A stretch of DNA of 64,000 nucleotides from Pseudomonas protegens CHA0 (GTDB taxonomy: Bacteria; Pseudomonadota; Gammaproteobacteria; Pseudomonadales; Pseudomonadaceae): assembly GCF_000397205.1 (NCBI RefSeq), contig NC_021237.1, positions 3,349,001 to 3,413,000 of the forward strand, read 5' to 3'. Every line of letters starts with the position of its first letter. Within the stretch, counting starts at the first letter, position 1. Below are positions 5,424-57,461 of this stretch, piece after piece. The translations under genes were made by a program, and so were the position numbers. The notes beneath the pieces were generated by a model, which saw only the letters and a list, made by a program, of their open reading frames with translations, was not told the origin of the DNA and made no database searches.

Positions 5424-6794
5424 ATGGCCGGCATCGGTTTCGAACTGCGCAAGATTCTCTCCCGCGACTCCTACACGGCGACCCTGCACGCCTATGTCTA
5501 TGCCGGCCTGATCAGTTCCGGGCCCTGGGTGCTGTCGATCCTCAGCGTGATGCTGGTGGGGGTGATCAGCCTCGGGCTGGTGGTGCCGGAGGTCCTGATC
5601 CGCCAGTTCCTGATCACCGTCACCTACCTGATGGCCACGTCGCTGATCCTGACCGGCGGCCTGCAGCTGTTTTTCACCCGTTTCGTGTCCGACCGCCTGT
5701 TCGAGCGCAAGTACGAGCAGATCCTGCCGAACCTGGTGGGCGTACTCTTGCTGGTGACCCTGGGCTCCGGGGCGCTGGGCATCCTGCTGCTGGTGACCCT
5801 GTTCGACCAGGCGCTGATCTACCGCCTGCTGACCCTGGCCAACTTCGTGGTGCTGTGCAACCTGTGGCTGGTGATCATCTTCCTCTCGGGGATGAAGGCC
5901 TATAACCGCATCCTTCTGGTGATGCTGGTGGGGTATGGCTTGATGGTCGGCAGCGCCTTCTACCTGCGCTACATGGGCATGGAAGGGCTGTTGCTGGCGC
6001 TGCTGCTGGGGCACAGCACGCTGCTGTTCCTGTTTCTCTACGACATCCTGCGCGAGTACCGGGCCGAAAAGCTGGTGGCCTTCGACTTTCTCGACCGCCG
6101 CCAGGTGTTTGTCAGCCTGCTGCTGACCGGGCTTTGCTACAACCTGGGGATCTGGATCGACAAGTTCATCTTCTGGTTCAACCCGGAAACTTCGAGCCAG
6201 GTGATCGGGCCGATGCGCGCGTCAATTCTCTACGACCTGCCGATCTTCCTCGCTTACCTGGCGATCATTCCCGGGATGGCGGTGTTCCTGGTGCGCATCG
6301 AAACCGATTTCGCCGAATGGTACGACCGCCTGTTCCGTGCCGTGCGCGATGGCGAGACCTTGCAGCACATCGGTTCGCTGAAGGCCGAGATGACCTTCTC
6401 GATCCGCCAGGGCCTGCTGGAAATCTGCAAGGTCCAGGGGCTGACGGTGGTCCTGCTGTTCCTCTTCGGCCCGCGCCTGCTGGAGTGGCTGGGGATGTCC
6501 AGCTACTACCTGCCGCTGTTCTACATCGACCTGATCGGGGTGAGCATCCAGGTGGTGTTCATGGCGATTCTCAACGTGTTCTTCTACCTCGACAAACGCG
6601 CCATCGTGCTGGAGCTGTGCCTGCTGTTCGTGGCCCTCAATGCCGCCCTGACCCTGCTCAGCCTGCACCTGGGGCCGAGCTTCTTCGGCTATGGCTTTAC
6701 CCTGTCGCTGCTGATCTGCGTGCTGCTGGGGCTGACGCGGCTGTCGACGGCGCTGGATGACCTGGAGTACGAGACGTTCATGCTCTCGCGTTGA
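5424..6794 (+). CDS. pelG: PelG, polytopic inner-membrane Pel transporter
   Basis: A 456-residue, very hydrophobic protein with about twelve predicted transmembrane helices, typical of the PelG branch of the MOP (Wzx-like) flippase superfamily. It starts immediately after the pelF stop, with AAGGAGG just upstream inside the pelF end. The family-typical N-terminus M-A-G-I-G-F-E-L-R-K is present. PelG is the last gene of the operon and is thought to move the growing polymer across the inner membrane with PelD and PelE. No strong hairpin with a T-tract follows it; the next gene is on the opposite strand. Confidence 0.95.
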   Translation: MAGIGFELRKILSRDSYTATLHAYVYAGLISSGPWVLSILSVMLVGVISLGLVVPEVLIRQFLITVTYLMATSLILTGGLQLFFTRFVSDRLFERKYEQILPNLVGVLLLVTLGSGALGILLLVTLFDQALIYRLLTLANFVVLCNLWLVIIFLSGMKAYNRILLVMLVGYGLMVGSAFYLRYMGMEGLLLALLLGHSTLLFLFLYDILREYRAEKLVAFDFLDRRQVFVSLLLTGLCYNLGIWIDKFIFWFNPETSSQVIGPMRASILYDLPIFLAYLAIIPGMAVFLVRIETDFAEWYDRLFRAVRDGETLQHIGSLKAEMTFSIRQGLLEICKVQGLTVVLLFLFGPRLLEWLGMSSYYLPLFYIDLIGVSIQVVFMAILNVFFYLDKRAIVLELCLLFVALNAALTLLSLHLGPSFFGYGFTLSLLICVLLGLTRLSTALDDLEYETFMLSR

Positions 6795-6907
6795 GGAGCA
6801 TCGGCAAGCGCGTGCTGCGGACCCGCGGCGGTGCTTTGCAGAGGCTTGCAGGATCGGGACGCCGGCTATGCCAACGCGGCCCGGGTTCTGCGCAGCACAG
6901 GGGCCGG

Positions 6908-7675
6908 TCAGGGAGCGTCGAGGTAGGATTTTCGCATTCTCTCCAGCGTGCCGTCCTTGCGCAGCCCCTCGACCGCCGCGCGCAGCTTGTGCACCAGTGT
7001 CGCATTGCAGTTTCTGGAGCAGGCCAGGTACAGATCGGTGCTCATAAAGACCGGACTGACCTGCAACGGCTGAGTCGACACCTTGCGCCAGATGCTCTGG
7101 GTTTCGGGAATGCCGTTGAACCAGGCGTCGACCCGTCCCATCAGCAGCAGTTGAGCCGGGTTCTCGCCAATTTCAAACGGATAGATCTGGTTGTCGCCAA
7201 AGCCTTCAGCCCGAAGCTTCTGCTCTTGGGCACTGCCTCGGCCAACGGCGATCCGAGCGAAGGTTTCCCGTGCCTGCTGCAGGGTTTCGACGCGCGTGTG
7301 CAGGCTGAAGAAGGCTCTGTCCATGGTCATGATGGGCGCGATCCAGGTGTAATCGGCTTCTCTTTCCGGCGTGCGCGACAGGGGAATGATCAGCTTGTCG
7401 ACGCCTTTGCGTACGCTTTGCTGGGCTCGTGCCCAGGGCACTTCTATAAAGTGCAGCGTATATCCGGCCCGGGTCGCCGCTTCCGACGTCGCATCACCGA
7501 CGATGCCATGCAGGCCGGTCTGCTCCAGCATCGATAAAGGCGGCGCTTCGGCGATGTACAGGTCGAAGCTACGGGACTCGGCGCCAGACACTGAGGGCAC
7601 CCAGGCCGTCAGAACGAGCAGCGTCGTCAGGATCAGCGCCCCCCGCTGGCGCAACGTTTGACTCACATGAGTCAT
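6908..7675 (-). CDS. Periplasmic solute-binding protein, SBP_bac_3 type
   Basis: A 255-residue protein with an N-terminal signal peptide: a hydrophobic run at about residues 12-30 ending near V-S-G-A-E. The body has the layout of family-3 extracellular solute-binding proteins, with a Y-I-A-E-A-P-P-like first strand and a final helix followed by a charged C-terminus. Family members bind amino acids or related small molecules for ABC importers or sensors. No permease or ATPase gene is adjacent, so this is an orphan and the ligand cannot be inferred. It separates pel from fit and is convergent with pelG. The ribosome-binding site is weak. Confidence 0.75.
   Translation of the reverse strand: MTHVSQTLRQRGALILTTLLVLTAWVPSVSGAESRSFDLYIAEAPPLSMLEQTGLHGIVGDATSEAATRAGYTLHFIEVPWARAQQSVRKGVDKLIIPLSRTPEREADYTWIAPIMTMDRAFFSLHTRVETLQQARETFARIAVGRGSAQEQKLRAEGFGDNQIYPFEIGENPAQLLLMGRVDAWFNGIPETQSIWRKVSTQPLQVSPVFMSTDLYLACSRNCNATLVHKLRAAVEGLRKDGTLERMRKSYLDAP
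7659..7674. promoter_or_regulatory. Perfect inverted repeat over the start codon of the solute-binding protein
   Basis: TGACTCA, a two-base spacer, then TGAGTCA. The repeat covers the ATG at 7675-7673 and the first codons of the reverse-strand solute-binding protein gene. It could be an operator half-site pair or an mRNA hairpin masking the start, but a 7-bp repeat can also arise by chance in coding sequence. Confidence 0.3.
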
Positions 7676-8170
7676 GGCAGTAACTCAACAAACAGTGGCA
7701 TTTCATGCTCTCGGATTAACGCTGCGTATTCGACACGTACAGAGACCAACCCGCAACGACCTGCAAAACGTGCCGCCAAGATTAGAGGGTTATGCGCAGA
7801 GATGGATGGGGTCGACGGATTTTTTGACCTCTGATAGCCATCACGGTTCAGGGCGCGCACAACCGGTGAGGGCATTGACTGGTGCGCTGATACTCACGTT
7901 GAACAGCCGTGGGCAGCGCCGTATCAGTAACCTCGCCACCTCTCCAGCCAGGGGGCCAGGCTCTGCGCATGCGCCTGATGCGCATGCAGGGGTTTTACGG
8001 GACAGCCTTAAGTTTTAGTTAAAACGCTTCAATCAAACTGCTGATTATCATTCGTAATTGGCTGACTCAGACTGCGTTCGTGCCTCCATGCTCCCTGGAG
8101 CAAGAAACGAGCGGTCTATGCCAGTCAATACTGCAACAACCCGCAGCCTGTCCTCAGCGGATGTTCCGCT
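7676..8170. other. Intergenic region upstream of fitA with repeat elements, likely fit promoter region
   Basis: This 495-base gap separates the divergent solute-binding protein gene and fitA and holds no convincing gene. A direct repeat TGCGCATGC occurs at 7964-7972 and 7979-7987 (15-base period). It is followed by an AT-rich stretch (about 8005-8060) containing the palindrome GTTTTAGTTAAAAC at 8012-8025 and the segment GATTATCATT at 8043-8052. The AT-rich drop in a GC-rich background is typical of a promoter. This is the natural place for fitABCDE control, including FitG action, but no binding site is demonstrated by the sequence. Confidence 0.5.
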
Positions 8171-10312
8171 ATGACGGTGCTGTCTGCCCCATCATCCGCG
8201 GCCGATACGGTCGTTCACTCAGCCTTGGCCTGCTGCCATCTGCTGCTGCAACTTACCCAGGAACGCGTACCGCAAGCCGCGGCCCCGCAATCCCTGGACC
8301 CTGACCCTTCGCGGGACCTGCGCCAGGCGGTCAGGGACTACGCACGCAACGCCGGTGTCGATCTGCGCCTTGAACGCCTGGCACTGACCCGGCTGACCCC
8401 GAAGATGCTGCCCCTTGTCTGGCGCAACCAGAGCGGCGAATTCATGTTGCTGGCGCGGCTCTCGGACACCCAGGCGCTGGTGCAGCGACCTTCAATGCCG
8501 ACCCCGGACATGCTCGATCGCCTGCAGTTGGCCGAGCAGTGGAGCGGGGAGGTGATTCGCCTGCGCCAGAGCGGTTTGCGCTTCGATCTGTCCTGGTTCG
8601 TACCGGAGCTGCTGCGCCATCGGCGGATACTCGGCGAAGTGCTGCTGTGCTCGCTGTTGCTGCAGGTGCTGGCCCTGGCGACGCCGTTGTTCTTCCAGGC
8701 GGTGATGGACAAGGTCATGGTGCACCGGGCGCTGTCGACCCTCGACGTGCTGGTGATGACCCTGGTGGTGGTGGGCCTGTTCGAGGTGCTGCTCAAGGGC
8801 TTGCGCGAATACCTGGCGGCGCACACCGCCAATCGCATCGACATCGGCCTTGGGGTCAAGCTCTTGCGCCATCTGCTGGGCCTGCCGCTGCTGTACTTCA
8901 AGCAACGCCAGGTGGGGGCGATCATCACCCGGGTCCAGGAGCTGGACAGCATCCGCGAGTTCCTCACCGGCTCGCTGCTGACCCTGTGTGTCGACGTGGC
9001 CTTCACCCTGGTGTTTTTTGCGGTCATGGCCTGGATTTCCTGGCCGTTGACCCTGCTGGTGCTGCTGACCTTGCCCCTGTATGCGCTGCTGGCCTGGTTC
9101 AGCACCGGCCCGCTGGAGAAGCGCATCGAGCGCCAGTTCTACAGCGCGGCGCGCAACACCGCCTTTCTCAACGAAAGCGTCAGCAGCAGCGAAACCATCA
9201 AGAGCCTGGCGGTGGAGCCGCGCATGCAGCGTCGCTGGGAGTCGCAGACGGCGCAGATGGTCGCGGCCGGGTTTGCCAGCCAGACCCTGGGCAGTGCCAT
9301 CAGCCAGACCGTGATGCTGTTGCAGAAAGTCACGGCGGTGGCGGTGATCTGCTGGGGCGCTAGCCGGGTCATCGACCTGCAAATGAGCATCGGCCAGTTG
9401 ATTGCCTTCAACATGATGCTGTCCCACGTCAGCCAGCCCGTAGCCAAGCTGATCGAGGTCTGGCAGCAGTTCGTCCGGGTGCGGGTGTCGGTGGACAAGC
9501 TGGGCGACATGCTCAACCTGCCGGTGGAGCAGGCCGAGGGGGATCTGCGCCCGGCACAGGCGTTGCGTGGCGAAGTGCGCATCGAACAGTTGGTGTTCCG
9601 CTACCGCCCGGAACTTGAGTGGGTGCTGCGCGGCCTGGACTTGCAGATCGTCGCGGGGCAGACCCTGGGCATCGTCGGGCCGTCCGGGTCCGGCAAGAGC
9701 ACGCTGACCCGCTTGCTGCAGAAACTCTACACCCCCGATGGCGGGCGCATCCTGATCGACGGCTTGCCCCTGGAGCAGTTGCAGCCGGCCTGGTTGCGCA
9801 GCCAGATTGGCGTGGTGCTCCAGGAAAACTACCTGTTCAACCGCAGCGTGCGCCACAACATCGCCCTGCGCCATCCCACCGCCTCCCTGGAAAGCGTGAT
9901 CGCCGCGGCGCGCCTGGCCGGTGCCCATGATTTCATCCTGCGCCTGCCCCTGGGCTACGACACGGTGCTGGCCGAAGCCGGCAGCTCCTTGTCCGGCGGC
10001 CAGCGGCAGCGCATCGCCGTAGCCCGGGCACTGATGGGCGACCCGCGCATCCTGATTTTCGACGAAGCCACCAGCGCCCTGGATGACGAATCCCAGGCGC
10101 TGATCCAGGACAACATGGCGAGCATCGCCCAGGGACGCACGGTGATCATCATTGCCCATCGCCTGTCTGCGGTACGGCATTGCCAACGCATCATCGCTCT
10201 GGAACAGGGGCGCATCAGTGAATCGGGCAGCCACCAGCAACTCTTGGCCAACGGCGGTTGCTACTCGCGCCTGTGGGCGCTGCAACAGGCGCTGTGCAAG
10301 GAGGCGTCATGA
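8171..10312 (+). CDS. fitA: FitA, type I secretion ABC transporter of the Fit toxin system
   Basis: A 713-residue fused membrane/ATPase transporter of the RTX-toxin exporter type. An N-terminal C39-peptidase-like domain is followed by a six-helix transmembrane domain (about 150-430) and an ATPase domain. Walker A is G-P-S-G-S-G-K-S with K509, the signature L-S-G-G-Q begins at residue 607, and Walker B ends at D631-E. The peptidase-like domain lacks an obvious catalytic cysteine motif, as in HlyB-type exporters of unprocessed toxins. fitA is the first gene of fitABCDE; its stop overlaps the fitB start (ATGA). The locus has two such ABC proteins, FitA and FitC, as described for P. protegens. 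Confidence 0.95.
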   Translation: MTVLSAPSSAADTVVHSALACCHLLLQLTQERVPQAAAPQSLDPDPSRDLRQAVRDYARNAGVDLRLERLALTRLTPKMLPLVWRNQSGEFMLLARLSDTQALVQRPSMPTPDMLDRLQLAEQWSGEVIRLRQSGLRFDLSWFVPELLRHRRILGEVLLCSLLLQVLALATPLFFQAVMDKVMVHRALSTLDVLVMTLVVVGLFEVLLKGLREYLAAHTANRIDIGLGVKLLRHLLGLPLLYFKQRQVGAIITRVQELDSIREFLTGSLLTLCVDVAFTLVFFAVMAWISWPLTLLVLLTLPLYALLAWFSTGPLEKRIERQFYSAARNTAFLNESVSSSETIKSLAVEPRMQRRWESQTAQMVAAGFASQTLGSAISQTVMLLQKVTAVAVICWGASRVIDLQMSIGQLIAFNMMLSHVSQPVAKLIEVWQQFVRVRVSVDKLGDMLNLPVEQAEGDLRPAQALRGEVRIEQLVFRYRPELEWVLRGLDLQIVAGQTLGIVGPSGSGKSTLTRLLQKLYTPDGGRILIDGLPLEQLQPAWLRSQIGVVLQENYLFNRSVRHNIALRHPTASLESVIAAARLAGAHDFILRLPLGYDTVLAEAGSSLSGGQRQRIAVARALMGDPRILIFDEATSALDDESQALIQDNMASIAQGRTVIIIAHRLSAVRHCQRIIALEQGRISESGSHQQLLANGGCYSRLWALQQALCKEAS

Positions 10313-11697
10313 GGTCCGGTGCACTGTTGTCTCGCTGGCGCCGCGCCTGGCAGCGCCTGGGTGACGCGCGGACGCTGCTCAAGCGCAGCCGCGACGAATA
10401 CGAGTTCCAACCCGGCTACCTGGAAATTGTCGAGCGGCCACCCGCGCCCTGGGCACGTGGCACGGCACTGCTGCTGATCCTGGCGATCCTGCTGGCCCTG
10501 GGCTGGGCGATCCTCGGCTTTCTCGACATTCATGCCAGTGCCGCCGGGCGCCTCATGGTCTCCAGCTACACCAAGGTGATCCAGGCGCACGAGGCGGGTG
10601 AAGTTCGGGCCATCCATGTACGTGACGGGCAGCGGGTCAAGGCCGGCGAGGTGCTGGTGGCGCTGAACCCGATCGGCATCGACGCCGAGTTGAGCGAGTT
10701 GCGCACACAACTGGATTTCAAGCGTCTGGAATTGGCCCGGGCCCGTGCACTGCTGACCCCGGACCCCTTGCACAGCTACCAGACGCCTGCTGGCCTGGAT
10801 GTACAGCAAGCCGCGGCGGCCCGGGAGCAACTGCTCAGTACCTGGAAGGAAATCAGCGCCAACCTGGACAGCCTCAACGCCGAAATCGCCATCAACCAGG
10901 CCAATCAAAGGGCTCGGGGCAGCGAGATCAGCGCCTTGGGCAAGCTGGCCAGCAATGTGCGCAAACGGCTTCATGCACGCCGGGCGATGGCCGCCGAACA
11001 ACTGATGCCCCTGGTGGAATTGCTTGAGCAGGAAAAGGAGCAACTGGACGTCGAGCGTTCGCTGGCCCAGCAGCAGGCCGAACTGCAGGTGCTCAAGGCC
11101 CAGGCGCAGAACCGTCGGGAGCAGCGCGACAGCTTCCTGGCCAGGACCCAGCGCGAACAGCATGAATTGCTCAACCGCAGCCAACAGGAGATCGCCGTGC
11201 TCGAGCAGCAACTGATCCGTGGCCGCGACCGGCAGCGCCTGCAAACCCTGCTGGCGCCGGTGGACGGTGTGGTCCAGCAACTGGCGGTGCATACCCTGGG
11301 CGGCGCCGTGCAAGCGGCGCAGCAGTTGCTGGTGATCGTGCCCGAGGGGGCCGAGCTGGATGCCGAGGTCATGGTGCTGAACAAGGACGTCGGTTTCGTC
11401 AGGGCCGGCCAGCCCGTGGAGATCAAGGTGGATGCGTTTCCCTATACCCGCTACGGCACCTTGCGCGGCACCGTGGCCCATGTCTCCGGTGACGCCATCA
11501 AGGACGAACAGCTGGGGCTGGTGTTCCCCACGCGGATTCGCCTGGAGCGTGCGGCCATTGCCGCAGGGCAGGGCTGGATGCCCTTGCAGGCGGGGATGAG
11601 CGTGACCGGCGAGATTCGCACCGGCGAGCGGCGGGTGATCAATTACCTGCTGAGCCCGATTCGCGAGTATCAGTCCGAAGCGTTGCGGGAGCGTTGA
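10309..11697 (+). CDS. fitB: FitB, HlyD-family periplasmic adaptor of the type I secretion system
   Basis: A 462-residue membrane-fusion protein. The start at 10309 has an excellent AAGGAGG site and overlaps the fitA stop; the longer frame would start inside fitA. A short cytoplasmic segment precedes one transmembrane helix (about residues 47-68). It is followed by a lipoyl half-motif, a long coiled-coil rich in E, Q, L and R (about 140-310), the second lipoyl half and a beta-barrel domain, the classic HlyD layout. It should bridge the ABC proteins to the outer-membrane channel FitE. Translationally coupled to fitA and fitC. Confidence 0.94.
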   Translation: MRSGALLSRWRRAWQRLGDARTLLKRSRDEYEFQPGYLEIVERPPAPWARGTALLLILAILLALGWAILGFLDIHASAAGRLMVSSYTKVIQAHEAGEVRAIHVRDGQRVKAGEVLVALNPIGIDAELSELRTQLDFKRLELARARALLTPDPLHSYQTPAGLDVQQAAAAREQLLSTWKEISANLDSLNAEIAINQANQRARGSEISALGKLASNVRKRLHARRAMAAEQLMPLVELLEQEKEQLDVERSLAQQQAELQVLKAQAQNRREQRDSFLARTQREQHELLNRSQQEIAVLEQQLIRGRDRQRLQTLLAPVDGVVQQLAVHTLGGAVQAAQQLLVIVPEGAELDAEVMVLNKDVGFVRAGQPVEIKVDAFPYTRYGTLRGTVAHVSGDAIKDEQLGLVFPTRIRLERAAIAAGQGWMPLQAGMSVTGEIRTGERRVINYLLSPIREYQSEALRER

Positions 11698-11699
11698 GC

Positions 11700-13859
11700 A
11701 TGACCCGCGCTTTCGATGCCGCTTCTGAACCGTCACCGACAATGCTCGACACCGGCCTGCACGCCCTGGCCTGGGCCGCCCGGCGCTTTGATCTGAGCAT
11801 CAGCGTGGCGCAACTGACTCACCGCCTGGGACGGGTTGAAGGTCCGGCCGACAGCCTTGACCTGCGGCGCTGCGCCGGCTGGATCGGCCTGCGCGCACGG
11901 GCAGTGCAGAGCCGGGTGCAGCGTTTGCATCACCTGCCGCTGCCGGCGCTGCTGGACACCACTCGGGGCTGGGCGGTGCTGGACGCGGTGGAGGGCGACC
12001 GGGTCCGGGTATTCTGGCCGCTGCAGGGGCAATGCCAGACCCTGTCGCGCCAGGAGCTGGCGACGCTCTGGCAAGGCCATGATCAGGGACAGGGAGAGGT
12101 GTTGTTGCTGGCCGAGCGGCATGTGCAACTGAAGGCGGGTGGTTTCGGCGTCTCCTGGTTCCTGCCGTCGATCCTCAAGCATGGGCGCCAGTTTCGCAGC
12201 GTGCTGCTGGTGTCGCTGATGCTGCAAGGCGTAGCGCTGGTCACGCCGCTGCTGTTCGAGAACATCATCGACCGGGTCCTGGTCAGTCGCGGCCTGTCGA
12301 GCCTGCAAGTGCTGGGGATCGCCATGCTGGCCCTGGCGCTGTTCGAGCCCTTGTTCGGCCTGTTGCGGTCCTGGCTGTTCAGCAATGTGGCGAGCAAGAT
12401 CAACGCCGAGCTGTCCGCGCGCCTGTACCAGCATCTGATCCAGTTGCCGCTGGGTTATTTCCAGCGGCGCCAGAGCGGCGAGATCATCGCCCGGGTCGGT
12501 GAGATGCAACAGATCCGCCAGTTTCTTACCGGCTCGGCCTTGACCCTGGTGCTGGACCTGGCGTTCTGCGGGTTGTTCATCGCCGTGATGTACAGCTACG
12601 CACCGCTGCTGACCTGGGTGGTGGTGGGCTCCCTGGCCCTGTATTTCCTCTTCTGGCTGTGCGTGGGCCCCTTGCTGCGCAGCCGGGCCTTGCGCGAATA
12701 CGAGTTGAATGCGGCCAACACGGCGTTTCTCACCGAGACCGTGACCGGCATCGAGACTATCAAGACCGGGGCCATCGAAAGCGCCTTCCAGCAGCAGTGG
12801 CAGCGCCAGTTGGCGGCTTATGTGCGTGCGGCGTTCCACACCCGCATCGTCGGGATCTGGGCCGGGCAGGGCATCGGCCTGATCCAGAAGCTGACCGCGG
12901 CGCTGTTGCTGTGGTGGGGCGTGATGCTGGTGCTGGATGGCCAGTTGAGCCCCGGCCAACTGGTGGCCTTCAACATGCTGGCCGGGCATGTGGTGGAGCC
13001 GATCCTGCGTCTGGCCCAGGTCTGGCAGGACTTCCAGCACACGCTGATTTCCCTGCGCCGCCTGGGGGACATTCTCGACAGCGACTGTGAAAGCGGCAGC
13101 GGCGGCCTGGCCTCGGTGCCAGCGTTGCAGGGCGGGGTGAGCTTCCAGGGGGTGCGTTTTCGCTACGAGGAAGACGGCCAGGAGGTGCTGCGCCAGCTGG
13201 ATCTGGAGATCCAGCCGGGCGAGTTCGTCGGCATCACCGGGCCTTCCGGTTCCGGCAAATCGACCCTGACCCGCCTGTTGCAGCGCCTCTATGTGCCCCA
13301 GCACGGCCGGGTGCTGGTGGACGGCATCGACCTGGCCATCGCCGATCCGGTGGCCCTGCGCCGCAACATGAGCGTGGTGCTCCAGGAAAGCGTGCTGTTC
13401 GCCGGCAGCGTTGCCGAGAACATCCGCCTGTGCCGGCCTCAAGCCAGCGACGCCGAGGTGCGGCACGCCGCCGGTCTGGCCGGGGCGGCGCCCTTTATCG
13501 AGGCCCTGGCCCAGGGCTACGAGACCGAGGTGGGCGAGCGGGGCGGCCAGCTCTCCGGCGGCCAGCGGCAACGCATTGCCCTGGCCCGGGCCCTGTTGAC
13601 CAACCCCGGCATCCTGTTGCTGGACGAAGCCACCAGTGCCCTGGACTACGAGTCGGAAGCGGCGGTGATGGCCAACCTGCAGGGCATCGTCCGCGGCCGC
13701 ACGGTGATCAGCGTCGCCCATCGCCTCAATACCCTGCGCCATGCGGACCGGATTCTGGTCATCGATCAGGGCCGGGTGCTCGAACAAGGCACACACCAAC
13801 AGCTGCTAGCCCTGGACGGGTTGTATGCCCGGCAGTGGGCGCTGCAGATGAAGGACTGA
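11700..13859 (+). CDS. fitC: FitC, second type I secretion ABC transporter of the Fit system
   Basis: A 719-residue ABC exporter starting at the ATG at 11700, two bases after the fitB stop; a TTG at 11694 is an unlikely alternative. The N-terminal ~135 residues form a C39-like domain, followed by a transmembrane domain and an ATPase with G-P-S-G-S-G-K-S (K520), L-S-G-G-Q-R-Q-R and I-L-L-L-D-E-A-T-S. It parallels FitA but the two are clearly diverged, so they may form a heterodimer or act in sequence on FitD. A 121-base gap separates it from fitD, leaving room for an extra promoter. Confidence 0.94.
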   Translation: MTRAFDAASEPSPTMLDTGLHALAWAARRFDLSISVAQLTHRLGRVEGPADSLDLRRCAGWIGLRARAVQSRVQRLHHLPLPALLDTTRGWAVLDAVEGDRVRVFWPLQGQCQTLSRQELATLWQGHDQGQGEVLLLAERHVQLKAGGFGVSWFLPSILKHGRQFRSVLLVSLMLQGVALVTPLLFENIIDRVLVSRGLSSLQVLGIAMLALALFEPLFGLLRSWLFSNVASKINAELSARLYQHLIQLPLGYFQRRQSGEIIARVGEMQQIRQFLTGSALTLVLDLAFCGLFIAVMYSYAPLLTWVVVGSLALYFLFWLCVGPLLRSRALREYELNAANTAFLTETVTGIETIKTGAIESAFQQQWQRQLAAYVRAAFHTRIVGIWAGQGIGLIQKLTAALLLWWGVMLVLDGQLSPGQLVAFNMLAGHVVEPILRLAQVWQDFQHTLISLRRLGDILDSDCESGSGGLASVPALQGGVSFQGVRFRYEEDGQEVLRQLDLEIQPGEFVGITGPSGSGKSTLTRLLQRLYVPQHGRVLVDGIDLAIADPVALRRNMSVVLQESVLFAGSVAENIRLCRPQASDAEVRHAAGLAGAAPFIEALAQGYETEVGERGGQLSGGQRQRIALARALLTNPGILLLDEATSALDYESEAAVMANLQGIVRGRTVISVAHRLNTLRHADRILVIDQGRVLEQGTHQQLLALDGLYARQWALQMKD

Positions 13860-13980
13860 CCCCACCGACGGCAGGAGGACTCGCCCACCCGTCATGTCTC
13901 CCCACCCCGCATATCCATACCCATAGGCAGCCCTTCGCGAGACGCAGGGCTTGGCTCAAAACAGACAAAGGATCATTGCA

Positions 13981-16900
13981 ATGGCTTTTATGTCCAAGGA
14001 CTTCACGCGCCTGCTCAATACCCTGATCGACCAACAGATCAAGACGGCAGGGCGGCAAACCGAATGGTTCAACATGAGCGCCGACGAGCGTGCCGCGTAC
14101 ATCGGCCAGGTCGGCGAGCGCCTGCTGGAAATGCAGCAGAGCACCCTGAGCGTGCTGGCCGCCCAGCATTACCAGATGCAGGACAACCCGGTCTCGGTGG
14201 GCGATCAGTTGCAGGTGCTGCAACAACGCCGCAAAGAAATGAAGGCCATCGCCGACACCCCGGCCACCATTGCCTACAAGCAGCAACTGGACCGTGACAT
14301 CCTGTTGTACAGCCGTCAGGACACGGCGATCAGCCACTATGACAGCACCTGGAACAAGGCCCTGCGGCTGCTCAGTCCCGGTGGCGCCAAGGCCGAGGTC
14401 CTGCAAGCCGATGCGCCGGCCAAGCAGAAAGAGCTCAAGGGCCGGATCAACCGCCTGGAGAAGCACCTGAGCCTGCAGGTGGCCGACTCCACCTTCAGCC
14501 AGACCTACGTGACCCTGTTCTCCGAGCTGCAGGCCTACAAGGAGGTGAGTACCCGCTACAACGCCTGGCTCAAGGCCGCCCCGCAGCAGCAGGCCGCGAG
14601 CCTGGACGCACTGGCCAAGCCGCCCCGGGCCTCCGACGAGCTGCCGGTGAACCTTTCACTGCTGATGATGGAGGAGCGCCCGGGCTACATCCGCATGAAC
14701 GTGGCGCTGGTCAATGCCAGCACCGATGGCCGCTTCAAGGACTTCTACCTGGAGCACGGCCGGCTGGTGGTGCCCACCGACGGCGTGCTGAATTTCTCCT
14801 TTGGCACCGCCGCCCGTTCCCTGGCCTGGCAGCAACAGTACCGGCTCAAGAGCGAGCCACCGTCCATGCGCTCGCCGACCTATGCACCGATTCGCTCGGT
14901 GCTGGTCAAGACCGGGTTCGTCGAGCAGTACTTCGCCAACCACCTGGTGTCGGAAAGCTCCCTGCGCGAAGGCTTCAAGGCCCAGGTGCTGAGCAACGGC
15001 CGCAAGCTGCTGTTGACCGGCGTCGATCGCAAAGTGCCCAACCAGGTCGGCATCCAGGTCTCGGGCCAGTCGCCCGGCACCAGCGTGACCCGTGAAGTGC
15101 CCCTGGCTGGCGCCTTGAGCGAACTGATCAACCAGAACGCGGACCTCAGCAGCTTCCAGACCCTGGGCGTCGAAGACTATCGGCAGAACAGCTACCACCC
15201 GGACCGCGACGGCCTGTTCGTCAATATTCATGAGCTGGAACGCTCGGTCGGCTTTGCCGAGCATCAGTACCTGCTGGAAATGCCCCAGGGTGACGCTTAC
15301 CGTTCGGCGACACCTTTTGCCGTGATGACCGTCGAGGGCGACAAGGTCAGCAGCAGCCACCTGAGCAAGGCCCAGACCGAGACCCTGTATCAATACAACG
15401 CGGCGTTTTTCGAGCGCCTGGAACAACTGCGCGGTGAGGGCTTCAAGGCCAGCCGGCTGTTTGAAGGCAGCAGCGAGCGCGCCACCTTCGTGCAACAGCT
15501 GACGCGCCTGCTCGAACGCAACCACATCACCCCGGCCGGGGTGCTGCTGACGCAACACAGCCGCCCGAGCCTGCGGGATATCAAGGGCAACAACCTGAAC
15601 AAGGTGCTGTGGGAACAGGCCTTCGCCGCGTCGGTCTGGCAAAGCCACGACAACGATGGGCTGCTGTTCGGCCTGGGGCAGAACCTGGTGAAGAACCAGG
15701 CACTGGACAAGGTCCTGCAAGGCGGTTATCTGCAGAGCGACATTGCCCAGGCCAAATTGCTGCTGGCACCGCTGTATGAACAGTGGCGTGCTCAAGCGAT
15801 CGAGACGGAAACACAGCGAGTGGCCAGCGCCAACGCCGGGCAGCATCCAGGCAACCCGAAGGTGCATGTCTTCGATCAGGTGGCGGTGGAGCGCGGCCTG
15901 GACAGCAAACTGCTGAACCTGTTGTTGAGCGGCCCCCAGGGCCTGGCGCCGGCCGATGTCGCGTTGCGGCCGACGGTCGAGGCGCTGTTGTCCGGCGACC
16001 AGGGCCGCAGCCTGCGCAAACAGGCGTTGTTCCATGCCCTGCGCCCCGTGGCCGACAGCTTTTCCAAGGCCGCGGTGCCGGTCAATGCCCATGCCGCGCT
16101 GGCGCCAAAAACCGGCGCCGACAAGGTCATGATCAACAACCGGCTGAATCAGCCCGACCCCTACCTGATCCTCAATACCCACCCGGAGCAGGCACAGACC
16201 GATGCCGCGCTGCTGATCCAGGACGACAAGTACCGCAGCTACAGCCAGTTCCGTCCCGATCCGAACAATGAAGCCACACGCTACATGAACGACCTGGACA
16301 CCCCGTTCGTGGGGGGCATTTCCGGGACCACCCAGACCGTCAGCAATGCCTTGCCGGAGTTGTTCGGTAGCGCGCCGAGCGTCAAGCAGTACTGGCAGTT
16401 CCAGATGGCCAACGCGGCCTTCATGATCCGCAACGGCTATCACTCGTTCTTCGAAACCCTGTATGTCGCCGCCCGTTATGAACCCCAGGGGCCGGACAGC
16501 ATCGGCAAGGACCTGCTGCAGACCTTCGACCGCTACCGTGCCGAAGGGCGCCGGGAGGCTTTGCACGGAGAGTTGTACGACGCCGTGATGGCCCGAGTCC
16601 TGCCCATCGTCAATCAAGGCCTGGCGCCGAGCGAGGAGTTCCATCCACCGCGCTTCACCGACCTGGGGCCGCTGCCCGCGCTGTTGGGGCAGGCCGCCAA
16701 GGACCTGCAACTCAAGACCGGGCTGGCGTCGCTCGGAGCCGGCTTCGAACCGCGCCAGGGCAGCGCCGACATTCACCAGTTTGCCGCCGACCCGGTGCAG
16801 TTCGCCCAGACTCACACCCTCAGTGCCGAGGCCCTGGTCAAGGCGGGGCGCTTGCCGGCCCAGGGCAACGTGCAGTTGGTGGAAGTCGCGCCCAGGCTGT

Positions 16901-51941: not shown

Positions 51942-52547
51942 ATGAGTGTTCTGCTGACTCGCCGCACCCTGCTCACCAGCGCCGGAGTGCTCGGCCTGGG
52001 CCTGCTCGCCGGTTGCGACAACAGTCCCCGACTGTCCTTCAAATACGGCAAGGACCTGAGCAATCAGATTCTTGGCCGCACCTTCAAACTCACCGATTCC
52101 CAGGGCGAAACCAAGTCGCTGTCCAGCTACCGCGGCCTGATGCCGATGATTTTCTTCGGCTTCACCCAGTGCCCGGCCGTGTGCCCCACCACCCTGGCCC
52201 GCGCGGCCCAGGCCAAGAAGCTGATGGGCCGTGATGGCGACCGCCTGCAAGTGGTGTTCATCACCCTGGACCCGGAGCGCGACACACCCGAAGTGCTGGA
52301 CGCCTACGTCAAGTCCTTCGACCCCAGCTTCGAGGCGCTGTACGGCACCCTGGAGCAGACCGCTGCCACCGCCAAGGAATTCGGCGTGTTCTACGAAAAG
52401 ATCCCCAGCGGCTCGACCTACACCCTGTCCCACACCGCCACCAGTTTCGTCTTCGACTCCCGGGGCACCTTGCGCCTGGGGCTTTCCCAGTCCCTTACCG
52501 CCCAAGAGTGCGCGGAAGACCTGCTCACCGTCATGGAGGTTTGTTAA
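51942..52547 (+). CDS. SCO1/SenC-family copper-binding lipoprotein
   Basis: A 201-residue protein whose N-terminus is a lipoprotein signal with L-L-A-G-C (residues 20-24). The ATG at 51942 is chosen because it starts the signal sequence; an ATG at 51897 would add 15 residues in front. The thioredoxin-like body carries the copper motif C-P-A-V-C-P and a later histidine in T-L-S-H-T-A-T. Sco proteins deliver copper to cytochrome c oxidase or act in redox maintenance. The stop overlaps the start of the PCuAC gene (TAATG), so the pair is translationally coupled. Confidence 0.92.
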   Translation: MSVLLTRRTLLTSAGVLGLGLLAGCDNSPRLSFKYGKDLSNQILGRTFKLTDSQGETKSLSSYRGLMPMIFFGFTQCPAVCPTTLARAAQAKKLMGRDGDRLQVVFITLDPERDTPEVLDAYVKSFDPSFEALYGTLEQTAATAKEFGVFYEKIPSGSTYTLSHTATSFVFDSRGTLRLGLSQSLTAQECAEDLLTVMEVC

Positions 52548-53026
52548 TGCATTCCCTACAGCGCCCATCCCGTCTCAAAGCTGCCCTGCTGCTGGTTTCC
52601 TTGCTGGGCCTGGGCGGCACCGCCAGCGCCGCGACCCAAGTGGACAACGCCTGGGTCCGCGCCACCGTAGCCGGCCAGCACGCCAGCGGCGCCTTCATGG
52701 ACCTCACCGCCAGCAGCGACAGCAAGCTGGTTGAGGTGCAATCGCCAGTGGCCAAGAACGTGCAGATCCACCAGTCGAGCATGCACAACGACGTGATGAG
52801 CATGCAGCAAGTGGACGCCGTGGCCCTGCCGGCCGGGCAGAAAGTCAGCCTGGACACCCACGGCTACCACGTGATGCTCATGGAGCTCACCGGCCAGATC
52901 AAGGCCGGCGACATAGTGCCCCTGACCCTGACCGTGGAAAACGCCAAGGGCGAGAAGGAAACCATCAAGGTCGAAGCCCAAGCCCGAGCGCTGAATGCGC
53001 CGGACCACAGCATGATGAAACACTGA
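52547..53026 (+). CDS. Periplasmic copper chaperone, PCu(A)C family
   Basis: A 159-residue protein with a signal peptide ending A-S-A-A. The metal motif of the family is present: H in V-Q-I-H-Q-S-S-M, M-x-S-M-Q-Q-V, and H-G-Y-H-V-M-L-M, i.e. H-M-X-n-M-X-n-H-X-M. The C-terminus is rich in M and H (H-S-M-M-K-H). PCuAC donates Cu(I) to the Cu-A site of cytochrome oxidase together with Sco. It shares one base with the upstream sco gene and is followed by a strong terminator. Confidence 0.92.
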   Translation: MHSLQRPSRLKAALLLVSLLGLGGTASAATQVDNAWVRATVAGQHASGAFMDLTASSDSKLVEVQSPVAKNVQIHQSSMHNDVMSMQQVDAVALPAGQKVSLDTHGYHVMLMELTGQIKAGDIVPLTLTVENAKGEKETIKVEAQARALNAPDHSMMKH

Positions 53027-53060
53027 AAACAAGTAGCGCAAATGGCCCCAGGGCCAGCTG

Positions 53061-53096
53061 AAAAAGCCGCGTTCTCGTAGGACGCGGCTTTTTTTT
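53061..53096 (+). terminator. Rho-independent terminator of the Sco/PCuAC operon
   Basis: AAAAAGCCGCGT pairs with ACGCGGCTTTTT around a nine-base loop and runs into a T-tract ending at 53096. The A-rich left arm also makes it a potential terminator for the reverse direction. It isolates the copper operon from the ATPase/HNH pair downstream. Confidence 0.9.
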
Positions 53097-53297
53097 GTCC
53101 GAGGCAAACGTCCCGACCTGGAAAACCCGACAGTCGCCAATCTCTTGAATGCTTGGCCGGCTATTTCCCGCAACCGACTCATGTGCGAATCTACGCGCCA
53201 TTTTTTACTAATGGCACATAGCTATTTTTTGCCAGTGCGCTGGCCTGCTAGCCAGGGTTCAAAGCAAGAGCTGAAAAACAATTATCAGGGATTCGAT

Positions 53298-54923
53298 ATG
53301 TCGCCAGACCGCACTGTGATCCATGTGCTTTTTTTCGTCGGACAATCGGGACAGCCCACCGTATTGCCATTAACCGATGCTTATGAGGTGGTGGTCTATC
53401 CCTCCGAGGGACCGCCTGACATCCCCCCTTTCACTCTGGAAATAGCCCCTTCATCGCGCACCTCCAGCCGACAGCAGTTAGACGTAGCCTCGTTCACTAC
53501 CCTTTACGGCGAGAATGGCAGTGGCAAGACCGAGATGTTGCTGGGGGTGTGCGAAGGACTGGCTGATTGGGAGTCTAAATCCAAAGTCAGCATTCTTTGG
53601 GAAACGGAACAGGGGCTGTACCTATCGAAAGGTCTTTCGCTTAACAAGACCAGGCTGCTCTCCAGCCTGCAGATCACTCAAGACAAGTTTTGCGTACCGC
53701 CCGAATTTTCGGCAGTTTTCTACTCGACCTCTCCGTTTGAAAAGGTCAGACGCGCACTCTTGCGTCGTAGAAAAGTAAAAGATGTCAGCCCAAGGTTTGG
53801 TCTGGTCGTGGAGTCGGAGATGGTTGCGGCATTTAATGCCTATCCCTTTCTCAAGGACAAAGCCACCTTCGTCTCCGAGGCGACGGCGGAAATAAAACTC
53901 AAGCCGGCTTCATTGGTTGACTTGGTGAAGTCATATTCCGCGGACGGAGCCAGAACCTACAAGGCCCTGGAGCCGGAAATGAAGACCCGGCTTCATGAGA
54001 TCGACAGGCGCTCATCAGTACAGACGAGGTTTATCTGCTCCTTTGCCGTCCTGGAATGCCTGGACAGAGTAACTGATGAACAGCTTCATCTGTTGATTGA
54101 TACGTTGCTGGCAATGATCAAAGTTCACGGCCCGTGGCTCAACGACTTGCTGTTGGTTGACTTCCCTCAACTGCTTCTGCTGGCAGGAAACGATTTCTTG
54201 GCCGAGCAATTGCTCAAGGCCCGCAACGCGCTGGATGTAGTCCGTCCCTTGTTCAAAAACGTCAATACTTGGAGGCGACTGGCCTCTTTGGCCTATTTGG
54301 ATGAGCAAGCCGGTCACCAGATCCGTCAACATGAAGGTGTGTTTTCCGAAGTGGCTGCACTCGGTTTGCTCAAGTTCTCCTTCAAGCAACTGAGCTCCGG
54401 CCAGGCCAGCATGATGTCGCTGTACTGCTCCACCGCCCGGGCCTTCGGCGAGTTCGAGCGCGAGTCGCAGGATAGGTTGATGCTGCTGTGCATCGATGAA
54501 GGCGAGATGTTCATGCACCCCAAGTGGCAACGCATGTACATCGACAGCCTGCTGAAATTCATCGGGCAATTCGGTTCCCTGGCGAAAAGAACCCACGTGT
54601 TCATTTCCACCCATTCACTGATCGTCGCCGCCGATACACCCGCCGGCCGCCTGTTCGACCTGGACAACCAGCAACTGACCAATGCCTTCGGCTACACCCC
54701 CAAGCAAACCTTGAACTCGGTATTCGCGGTGGGAGATTTCACGGGCGAGTTCAACCTGAACCTGCTGACCAAACTCTCAGATGTGTTGAACCGCAAGGAT
54801 CAAGACTTGGAAAGCATCAGGCACGCCTGGCAGATCGCCGACACACTGGCCAACGATGAGCTCAGGCACCATGTACAACAACAGTTGAGCGTGCTGATCG
54901 GAGGCCCGCATGCTCAAGCTTAA
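53298..54923 (+). CDS. PtuA-like AAA/ABC-type ATPase of a Septu-like defence pair
   Basis: A 541-residue ATPase. The ATG at 53298 has AGGG upstream; an earlier frame opening at 53145 would add 51 residues that do not look conserved. Walker A is G-E-N-G-S-G-K-T (71-78). An ABC-type signature L-S-S-G-Q lies at 365-369, Walker B at L-L-C-I-D-E (D400-E401) and the H-loop at S-T-H (H439). A long helical insertion separates Walker A and the signature, as in SMC-like/OLD-like ATPases. It overlaps the HNH-nuclease gene by 14 bases. ATPase plus HNH is the PtuA-PtuB architecture of Septu. Defence role is inferred, not shown. Confidence 0.8.
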   Translation: MSPDRTVIHVLFFVGQSGQPTVLPLTDAYEVVVYPSEGPPDIPPFTLEIAPSSRTSSRQQLDVASFTTLYGENGSGKTEMLLGVCEGLADWESKSKVSILWETEQGLYLSKGLSLNKTRLLSSLQITQDKFCVPPEFSAVFYSTSPFEKVRRALLRRRKVKDVSPRFGLVVESEMVAAFNAYPFLKDKATFVSEATAEIKLKPASLVDLVKSYSADGARTYKALEPEMKTRLHEIDRRSSVQTRFICSFAVLECLDRVTDEQLHLLIDTLLAMIKVHGPWLNDLLLVDFPQLLLLAGNDFLAEQLLKARNALDVVRPLFKNVNTWRRLASLAYLDEQAGHQIRQHEGVFSEVAALGLLKFSFKQLSSGQASMMSLYCSTARAFGEFERESQDRLMLLCIDEGEMFMHPKWQRMYIDSLLKFIGQFGSLAKRTHVFISTHSLIVAADTPAGRLFDLDNQQLTNAFGYTPKQTLNSVFAVGDFTGEFNLNLLTKLSDVLNRKDQDLESIRHAWQIADTLANDELRHHVQQQLSVLIGGPHAQA

Positions 54924-55851
54924 GGTGGATCCGACCGCTAAACAGCGGCACCTGCAAACCTTGGGCGAGCGTTTTGACAAGGCCATGAGTGCCTGGAAGT
55001 CACCCTTCGCCGGTTATCCTCCCTTCACATCAGACTTGAAGAAGGTGTTGCAGAGCGAGCGCGATTTCATACTTGTCGGCGATGTCAGCCGGCTACACGG
55101 GGTGATCCAACAGGTCAAGCACCAAGCCGGGCCCCTTGATCATTACTTGCGAAATCGACCCAGCGCAAAGTCCGGCGCTCGGCAGGCCGATATGGAGAAG
55201 TTGATCACCAAGCTGGGCGAAATCTTCGACTACAGCAATTTCATCTACAAGGGCGTCGGCTGGAACGCCTACAAGCTGGTAGGCAGTTATGCACTGCGCA
55301 TCTGCCCTTACTGCCACCTGCACCATGTGAATTACCACGGCCAGAGTGTCGGCACCCCCAGGAAACTGGAAATGCGGCCGCCTCTTGATCACTTCTTGCC
55401 CAAGTCGATCTACCCCTATCTGGCGGTGTCGCTGTACAACCTGGTGCCCTCTTGTCACCCGTGCAACTCCTCGATCAAGGGGGATGACGACCCCGCCCAT
55501 ACAATCCCCCATCCTTTTGACCCCGCCGCCCCCCTGGACATGAGTTTTACCCTCAAGGGGTCGGCGCTTGGGATCTCTGGAATCACCGAGGAAGAACTTG
55601 AGCTGACCGTCACTGGTAACGGGGCCTGGGGCGAGTTCACCACATTCTTCCACCTGCAGGAGCGCTACCAGTGGTACGCCCCGGAGGTGACCGACATGCT
55701 CAAGCGCAAGCAGTTTCGGGATGAGAGCGATGCGGTGGTTCAGTCGTTGATACGTGCGGATTTCATCCTTGGGTTTGCCCCGCACGACTTCGAAAAACGT
55801 GCCCTGGGCATCTGCCTGCGGGACATCGCCAAAAACCTGAAGGTGCTCTGA
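54910..55851 (+). CDS. HNH nuclease, PtuB-like partner of the upstream ATPase
   Basis: A 313-residue protein whose start is inside the ATPase gene. The HNH module reads C-P-Y-C (132-135), then L-D-H-F-L-P-K-S with D160-H161, N177 in Y-N-L-V-P, and a second zinc pair C182-H-P-C185-N with K190. The order CxxC, DH, N, CxxCN is that of zinc-stabilised HNH endonucleases. An N-terminal helical region of about 125 residues and a C-terminal region of about 115 residues flank the domain, making it longer than typical PtuB proteins of about 200 residues. No other known defence genes are adjacent. Confidence 0.8.
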   Translation: MLKLKVDPTAKQRHLQTLGERFDKAMSAWKSPFAGYPPFTSDLKKVLQSERDFILVGDVSRLHGVIQQVKHQAGPLDHYLRNRPSAKSGARQADMEKLITKLGEIFDYSNFIYKGVGWNAYKLVGSYALRICPYCHLHHVNYHGQSVGTPRKLEMRPPLDHFLPKSIYPYLAVSLYNLVPSCHPCNSSIKGDDDPAHTIPHPFDPAAPLDMSFTLKGSALGISGITEEELELTVTGNGAWGEFTTFFHLQERYQWYAPEVTDMLKRKQFRDESDAVVQSLIRADFILGFAPHDFEKRALGICLRDIAKNLKVL

Positions 55852-55854
55852 GCC

Positions 55855-56472
55855 TCAATCTATCGCCCGCGCCAGCCAAACGGTGAACCCACAGCAGTCC
55901 GGGTCTTCGCTGATGTGCTGCACCACCTCGAAACCATGGGTGTCGAGCAAGGTGCAGTATTCCCCCGGGGAGAGGCTGGCGTGGTACAGGTCTTGGCCCT
56001 CGAATTCGCCGATGGCCTCCCCTGCCTCGGGGCCGCTGGTGAACATCAGGGCACAGCCCGGGCCGGCGTGGCGTTCGAAAACGGCGAACATGGCGCGCTG
56101 ATCGTCCGGGCTCAGGTGAAACAGGCTGTTCCAGGCGAGGATGCCGGCAAAATCCTGGTCCAGGGCGAGGCTGCGCATGTCAGCGTGGATCCATTGCTGC
56201 CCGGCAAAGCGCTGGCGGCACTGGTCCAGCAAGGTGGCAGAGCTGTCGACGCCGGTGACTGCACATTGGTGTTCGATCAGGTTGCGCGCAATCGGCTCGC
56301 CACCTCCGCAACCCAGGTCCAGCACCTGGCCGCCCTGCCCCATGACCCGGCGAAAGCGCTCCAGCCATGCCTGCTCTCCCTCGAAGGCCTCGGGGTTGGC
56401 GCTGCGACGCTGGTCCCAGACCCGAGCATGACGCTGGTACAGATCGACGATATGACGGGCGGACTCGTGCAT
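55855..56472 (-). CDS. Class I SAM-dependent methyltransferase
   Basis: A 205-residue protein with motif I V-L-D-L-G-C-G-G-G-E (about 50-59), the acidic end of strand 2 in V-T-G-V-D-S, and a later D-M-R-S / L-A-W-N-S-L-F-H-L segment consistent with motifs II-IV. This is a typical UbiE-like small-molecule methyltransferase layout. Substrate unknown. It is convergent with the HNH gene, leaving only three bases between the two stop codons. Confidence 0.88.
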   Translation of the reverse strand: MHESARHIVDLYQRHARVWDQRRSANPEAFEGEQAWLERFRRVMGQGGQVLDLGCGGGEPIARNLIEHQCAVTGVDSSATLLDQCRQRFAGQQWIHADMRSLALDQDFAGILAWNSLFHLSPDDQRAMFAVFERHAGPGCALMFTSGPEAGEAIGEFEGQDLYHASLSPGEYCTLLDTHGFEVVQHISEDPDCCGFTVWLARAID

Positions 56473-56543
56473 CCACAGGTTTCCGTGTGCGTGTGTGGCC
56501 GCAAATTACAGCACAACGGCGCTTGGGCCGGGCGTCAAACCGT

Positions 56544-57461
56544 TCAACTGCGCCCTGCCAGCTCCAGCAACTGCTCGCGCAGCCAGCGGTTGGCCGACTC
56601 GTTCTGCACTTGCTTGCTCCAGTACAGGTTGAGGCAGACCTCGGGCAGGGTCAGGGGCATGTCGAGAATCCGGTTGCCCAGCCCGGCGTTGATCAACTGC
56701 GCATTGTTGCGGGTCAGGGTCAGCAGGCCATCGCCCTGGGCCACCAGTTGCGCAGCGGTGAGAAAGTGCTGGCAGTGCTGGCGGATGCGCCGTACCACCC
56801 CCAGGTGCCCCAGGGCCAGGTCTTCGACGCAGATGCCTCGGCGCCTGGAGGTCACCGCCACATGCTCGGCCGCCAGGTAGCGTTCCACCGTCAGTTCGCC
56901 GCTGAAGCCGGGGCCGGCCATCACGCAGAAGGAGTCCTGCAGCAGCAGTTGCTGTTGCAGTTGCGGGTCGGTGAGCCGCGACAGTTCGATGGCCAGGTCA
57001 ATACGCCCGGCAATCATCTCCAGCTTCAGGTCGGCCCAGTGCACGCTGGTGCTGCGCACTTCCAGGTGCGGGGCAACACGGTTCAGGTGCGCCAGGATCA
57101 AGGGCAGGATCACCGGCTCCAGTTGCTCCGGCATGTTCAGGGTGAAACGCCGGCGGTCCCGCAACGGGTCGAAGGCCTGGGCCGGGTTGAGGCTGCGGCG
57201 CAGACCGCTGAGGGCGTCCTGGATCCCCGGGGCCAGTTGCTTGGCCAGCGGCGTAGGGGCCACGCCATAGCCTTCGCGGACGAACAGCGGATCGTCCAGC
57301 TGGGCGCGCAGGCGCGCCAGGGCGTGGCTGATGGCCGACTGGCTGAGGTGCAGCACCGAGGCGGCGCGGGTCAGGTTGCGCTCCTGGTACACCACCTCGA
57401 AGACCCGGAACAGGTTCAGGTCCAGGCGGCTCAGCCCTGACCATTCATGCGGTGAGTTCAT
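56544..57461 (-). CDS. LysR-family transcriptional regulator
   Basis: A 305-residue LysR regulator: N-terminal winged helix-turn-helix with L-N-L-F-R-V-F-E-V-V-Y-Q-E-R-N-L-T-R-A-A and L-H-L-S-Q-S-A-I-S-H-A-L, then a ligand-binding domain from about residue 95. It is divergent from the acyl-CoA ligase and carboxylase genes (162-base gap), the usual arrangement for a LysR activator and its target operon. Confidence 0.9.
   Translation of the reverse strand: MNSPHEWSGLSRLDLNLFRVFEVVYQERNLTRAASVLHLSQSAISHALARLRAQLDDPLFVREGYGVAPTPLAKQLAPGIQDALSGLRRSLNPAQAFDPLRDRRRFTLNMPEQLEPVILPLILAHLNRVAPHLEVRSTSVHWADLKLEMIAGRIDLAIELSRLTDPQLQQQLLLQDSFCVMAGPGFSGELTVERYLAAEHVAVTSRRRGICVEDLALGHLGVVRRIRQHCQHFLTAAQLVAQGDGLLTLTRNNAQLINAGLGNRILDMPLTLPEVCLNLYWSKQVQNESANRWLREQLLELAGRS

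Follow-up and report, generated by a model that had tools for sequence, protein, structure and literature searches.

Does the pair of overlapping genes at 53298 to 55851 in a 64,000-nucleotide stretch of the Pseudomonas protegens CHA0 chromosome (NC_021237.1, 3,349,001 to 3,413,000; hereafter the window) encode an undescribed variant of the Septu antiphage system, as an initial annotation proposed, or a member of some other family? The upstream gene, A, encodes an ATPase and the downstream gene, B, an HNH protein (Table 1; loci and genomes carry our own L and G numbers). With a probability of about 0.72, we read the pair as a putative two-gene, reverse-transcriptase-free PDC-M62 defense system acting like PtuA-PtuB (PtuAB). 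Our grounds are two adjacent intact genes, predicted folds like those of PtuAB, conserved active-site residues and a patchy presence at a single chromosomal site; in addition, some relatives are carried by prophages, and two genomes have one close to Gabija or Hachiman genes.

To place the two proteins, we relied on the profiles of PADLOC-DB 2.0.0, in which the PDC names presumably denote phage defense candidates. The top four matches of B were all PDC-M62B (E values from 1.1e-36 to 1.3e-15), followed by PDC-M01B at 1.3e-11; the best of these scored 125.1 bits over positions 40-273 of a 328-position profile, while PtuB appeared lower in the list at 4.7e-8 and 31 bits. The top three matches of A were PDC-M62A (2.3e-21 to 7.1e-15), followed by PtuA at 1e-14. 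The PtuA and PtuB profiles by which the initial annotation would have checked its proposal do match, then, but the M62 profiles match better. Prophage locus L122 reaches 641 bits on the M62B profile PDLC04741, against 125 at best for the window B, and the window branch is, on sequence grounds, a divergent one within PDC-M62. Since PDC-M62 already stands in PADLOC as a candidate separate from Septu, is the top match of both proteins and, as described below, groups with B, the pair is best assigned to this family rather than to an undescribed variant of Septu.

The phylogeny of B was built from 46 rows, with 19 of 26 viral loci entered (L123, L126, L132, L138, L139, L146 and L147 were omitted by choice) and 15 of 23 further loci dropped for want of a usable open reading frame (ORF). 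Under a midpoint root, with several long branches and only three PtuB rows, the tree separates these three (support 92/95) from a weakly supported group of 16 rows (83/84) and a group of 26 that includes the window (96/93), with row L051 beside the last. The window, Pseudomonas piscis MC042, Pseudomonas sp. PH1b and Rugamonas rivuli form a four-row branch (100/99). PADLOC labels were taken for sampled members, not for every row: the top profile was PtuB for L178, L179 and L057 (213-241 bits), M01B for L056, L164 and L135, and M62B for L122, L128, L062, L068, L046, L047, L058, L053, L054 and the window itself. We therefore consider it unlikely that the pair is Septu proper, that is, a PtuA and a PtuB with extra sequence. 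Gene order and predicted folds are alike and both Ptu profiles find their counterpart, but the M62 profiles score far higher for both proteins, and the PtuB-labeled rows split off in the midpoint-rooted tree and score 213-241 bits on a profile that gives B only 31.

The catalytic features of both proteins are well preserved. As the initial annotation described, A is a 541-residue ATPase with a Walker A motif, an LSSGQ signature, a Walker B motif and an H-loop (STHS). In alignments of 15 rows for each protein, drawn from the window, genome-contig and viral-contig loci (the P. piscis A row has one extra residue ahead of the Met), A residues G71, N73, G74, G76, K77, S366, S367, G368 and D400 are invariant in 15/15 sequences and E401 is nearly so, with the H-loop His replaced by Asn in four (L122, L123, L124 and L127). 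A also passes the Pfam cut-offs for AAA_15 (39.9 bits; cut-off 32.1) and AAA_21 (29.2 bits; cut-off 27), and B passes no cut-off in Pfam or NCBIfam. The zinc-type HNH nature of the overlapping second gene is nonetheless borne out by its residue pattern, C132xxC135...D160H161...N177...C182xxC185N186...K190, in which six of the nine positions (C132, C135, H161, N177, C185 and N186) are identical in all 46 aligned proteins, the window included, and D160, C182 and K190 are kept in 43, 44 and 45 of them. Structure comparison shows predicted folds that are PtuA-like for A and PtuB-like for B, supporting the PtuA-PtuB type of arrangement that had been proposed.

Outside these cores the proteins vary considerably. 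Among the window, P. piscis and PH1b copies, identity is 36-48% in the mostly helical A 216-357 but 68-84% in A 358-465, and A 1-60 and A 95-135 are likewise variable (34-49%); in B, the helical stretch 61-115, the most variable part of the protein, is 38-40% identical against 70-81% for 116-205. Faster evolution of the N-terminal part of B than of its HNH core is consistent with the suggestion that the flanks might serve as a sensor. The long flanks of B are real but not peculiar to it, as they are usual for M62B, whose profiles span 328-401 positions.

Several results weigh against this assignment to a defense system. The M62A match of A is restricted to the ABC core (profile positions 374-477 of 597), and VIA-align does not separate the candidate relatives of A, giving 11.4 for PtuA chains, 10.8 for SMC heads, 10.5 for AriA and 10.4 for Gabija. 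Foldseek alone found no significant match for B (best E value 4.7). As the initial annotation had noted, no clear defense gene was found nearby: 9 of 10 selected window ORFs between 46706 and 59312 were blank in PADLOC at an E value of 1e-5, and the match of the methyltransferase neighbor to mad2 (8.8e-10) was taken as generic. Neighbors of L052, L058 and L062, three of the five relative loci scanned, likewise gave no defense match at 1e-20, and in L048 the A-like ORF has only 351 amino acids, meaning that this pair near Gabija may be incomplete.

Relatives of the pair are nevertheless found in mobile and defense-associated settings. At least 26 B relatives lie in viral contigs, and those placed in the tree belong to either the M62 or the M01 group. 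An A-like ORF lies just upstream in 22 of the 26 viral-contig matches listed, including 12 of the 13 strongest (>90 bits); the remaining four are L126 and L138, with hardly any upstream sequence, and L146 and L147, with only a 102-amino-acid ORF there. Eight of 10 flanking proteins from four viral loci matched PHROGs families, including replication, ParB, spanin and terminase, and one viral contig carries a homing-endonuclease-like gene about 3 kb from its M62 pair (L122:9777-10700). Of 20 Pseudomonas-order loci retrieved for either gene, 15 carry both, three A only and two B only. Four of 10 neighboring proteins from the five relative loci are defense proteins (GajB, GajA, HamB and HamA). In L048, from another Pseudomonas genome, GajA/GajB lie about 1.1 kb from the M62-like pair (5309-8387; 9488-11454), and a Mutator-family transposase is found on the other side of the pair. 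In L060, a HamB and HamA Hachiman operon lies about 0.5 kb from the M62-like pair, with a 139-amino-acid ORF between them (8456-10890; 11401-15275); the HamA of this locus carries a Cap4 nuclease domain. A genome-contig scan retrieved no relative when B was the sole query and three when three sequences were used. Phage records gave one match covering 55% of the query, and 36 plasmid records matched, all below 60% identity and only one with a query coverage of 80% or more.

Within the genus, close copies of the pair are rare and, in three related strains, share one site. Full-length close A proteins occur in only 3 of 398 genus genomes, our own included, and M62B matches above 85 bits in 14 of 298 Pseudomonas genomes, the next match reaching 46 bits. 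The close relatives of the locus, in P. piscis MC042 and PH1b, sit between the same two flanking genes as the window pair, with A 57% and 50% and B 61% and 59% identical to it, respectively. In genomes G061, G400, G429 and G452 the site is empty, with about 50-100 bases between the flanks and left flanks 93-94% identical; all four lie outside the 69 of 398 genomes with an A match, and we take them to be among the 398. Because the interval 53027-55854 is occupied in three genomes, the window's included, but lacks the pair in four close relatives, it could represent a small hotspot for insertion. Such a distribution speaks against a host DNA-repair or other housekeeping pair, a possibility we rate as very improbable. 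SMC and Rad50 heads do score almost as high as PtuA for A, and the window pair is set among genes without defense matches, but the scarcity of close A proteins, the four empty sites and the carriage of relatives by prophages count against such a role.

The history of the site can be read from the divergence of its copies. The dN/dS ratio (nonsynonymous to synonymous substitution rate) is 0.25-0.29 for A and B, indicating that both are under purifying selection. Synonymous divergence (dS) from the window is 1.37 (P. piscis) and 1.58 (PH1b) for A and 1.07 and 1.25 for B, compared with 0.40-0.90 in five flanking genes of P. piscis and 0.21-0.57 in six of PH1b. At fourfold sites the contrast persists for PH1b (A 0.49 and B 0.57 vs 0.14-0.30 in six flanking genes). 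Allele replacement, our first reading for both relatives, was not clearly upheld for P. piscis, at 0.43 for A and 0.40 for B against 0.23-0.46 in five flanking genes. The leaders of all three copies have stretches in common. We interpret these patterns as a single site that has undergone loss and, in PH1b at least, replacement of the allele; separate gains or fast divergence may also account for them. A bolder proposal would make the pair a separate class of HNH immunity, gated by ATP and free of reverse transcriptase. Allele-specific recognition of triggers would then fall to the helical segment of A and to the helices at the N terminus of B, and complete alleles would come and go at one fixed chromosomal site among related pseudomonads. 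We regard this as possible but doubtful, and the unclear fourfold contrast in P. piscis lowered our estimate of it slightly.

Two further explanations fare poorly. The pair could derive from an Ec78-like (type I-A) retron, either as a remnant or as its effector, with the reverse transcriptase (RT) missing, as most of the best solved relatives, whether judged by sequence or by fold, are PtuA and PtuB of retrons. However, the whole 6.87-Mb single-contig genome gave no RVT_1 match (3 of 14 control genomes did), Rfam gave no retron RNA match in 52500-56600, and the Ec78-type profiles fell far below their cut-offs (NF041760, 30.4 bits vs 500; TIGR02646, 14.3 vs 52.15), leaving this origin highly implausible. 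Equally hard to credit is a toxin-antitoxin-like pair that stabilizes its own locus with phage defense incidental. A patchy distribution would fit, as would the overlap between the gene of a predicted nuclease and that of its partner, but the partner is a 541-amino-acid ATPase, and Gabija or Hachiman genes lie close to two of the relatives.

How might a PDC-M62 system of this kind work? PtuA and PtuB form an ATP-controlled complex that blocks phage, and PtuAB of retron Eco7 cuts tRNA. By analogy with PtuAB and the retron work, A with ATP would form an oligomer that holds B inactive; during infection, either a trigger from the phage or a drop in ATP would open the complex and release B. The freed B would cut nucleic acid, either DNA or, as in retron Eco7, tRNA, so that the phage is stopped or the cell dies first. 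Sensing or assembly would most likely involve the helical segment of A and the helices at the N terminus of B; both are among the most variable regions between the copies, and they are the first candidates for trigger recognition. For such ideas, the three diverged alleles, together with the four empty sites of close relatives, offer a natural test set.

Table 1. Coordinates of the gene pair, its motifs and its flanks in the window.
Feature	Position	Strand	Remark
Left flank gene	52508..53026	+	
Leader, left flank gene to A	53027..53297	+	GC 51%; stretches in common with two same-site relatives
A, ABC/SMC-head-type ATPase, 541 aa	53298..54923	+	PtuA-like predicted fold; top profile PDC-M62A
Walker A, GENGSGKT (A 71-78)	53508..53531	+	
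A 216-357, mostly helical, ahead of signature	53943..54368	+	variable
ABC signature, LSSGQ (A 365-369)	54390..54404	+	
Walker B, LLCIDE (A 396-401)	54483..54500	+	
A/B overlap, 14 nt	54910..54923	+	also 14 nt in the close relatives L046 and L047
B, zinc-knuckle HNH protein, 313 aa	54910..55851	+	PtuB-like predicted fold; top profile PDC-M62B
B 61-115, helical	55090..55254	+	least conserved part of B
HNH core of B, C132 to K190	55303..55479	+	
Right flank gene	55855..56472	-	convergent to pair

The pair is lower in GC (54% and 57%) than the window (63%). The A frame extends to an upstream TTG, but the ATG at 53298 was chosen as the start because the Met is aligned in both close relatives. We take the left flank gene to encode a PCu(A)C-type copper chaperone and the right one an S-adenosylmethionine-dependent methyltransferase. 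The leader gave no sigma-70-type promoter match. In a search for a hidden RNA near the pair, Rfam gave nothing beyond a hit to SdsR_RyeB at 53004-53096 that stays under the threshold (23.7 of 38 bits); it covers the last part of the left flank gene together with the terminator and probably arose by chance.

Finally, the pair can be set beside the systems it resembles. It shares with PDC-M62 the top profile for A and B, the gene order, the N-terminal extension of B and a longer stretch from the first zinc knuckle to the DH residues, though it stands well below L122 in B score and matches in A over the ABC core only. PDC-M01 also pairs an ATPase-like ORF with an HNH protein that shows the residue pattern of B, but forms its own tree group and has a shorter CxxC-to-DH stretch. 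Gabija (GajA) and PARIS (AriA) have the ABC-head ATPase class in common with A, with profile matches over the ABC core only, whereas the window pair has an HNH partner. Retrons Ec78, Eco7 and Ec83, whose type I-A effector is PtuAB, supply most of the top solved structural relatives, but no RT was detected in the genome that holds the window, and the scores on the retron profiles lie below their cut-offs. With Septu, the pair shares an ABC ATPase gene followed by a zinc HNH gene and similar predicted folds, while it belongs to a separate tree group, matches the PtuA and PtuB profiles weakly and the M62 profiles better, and has a B that exceeds the three PtuB rows (210-215 amino acids) by about 100 residues. 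It thus represents a Septu-like branch set apart from Septu by profile, tree and genome context, yet with a common predicted fold, and, if active, would show an effector of PtuAB type that operates without any retron in a lineage distinct from that of Septu.
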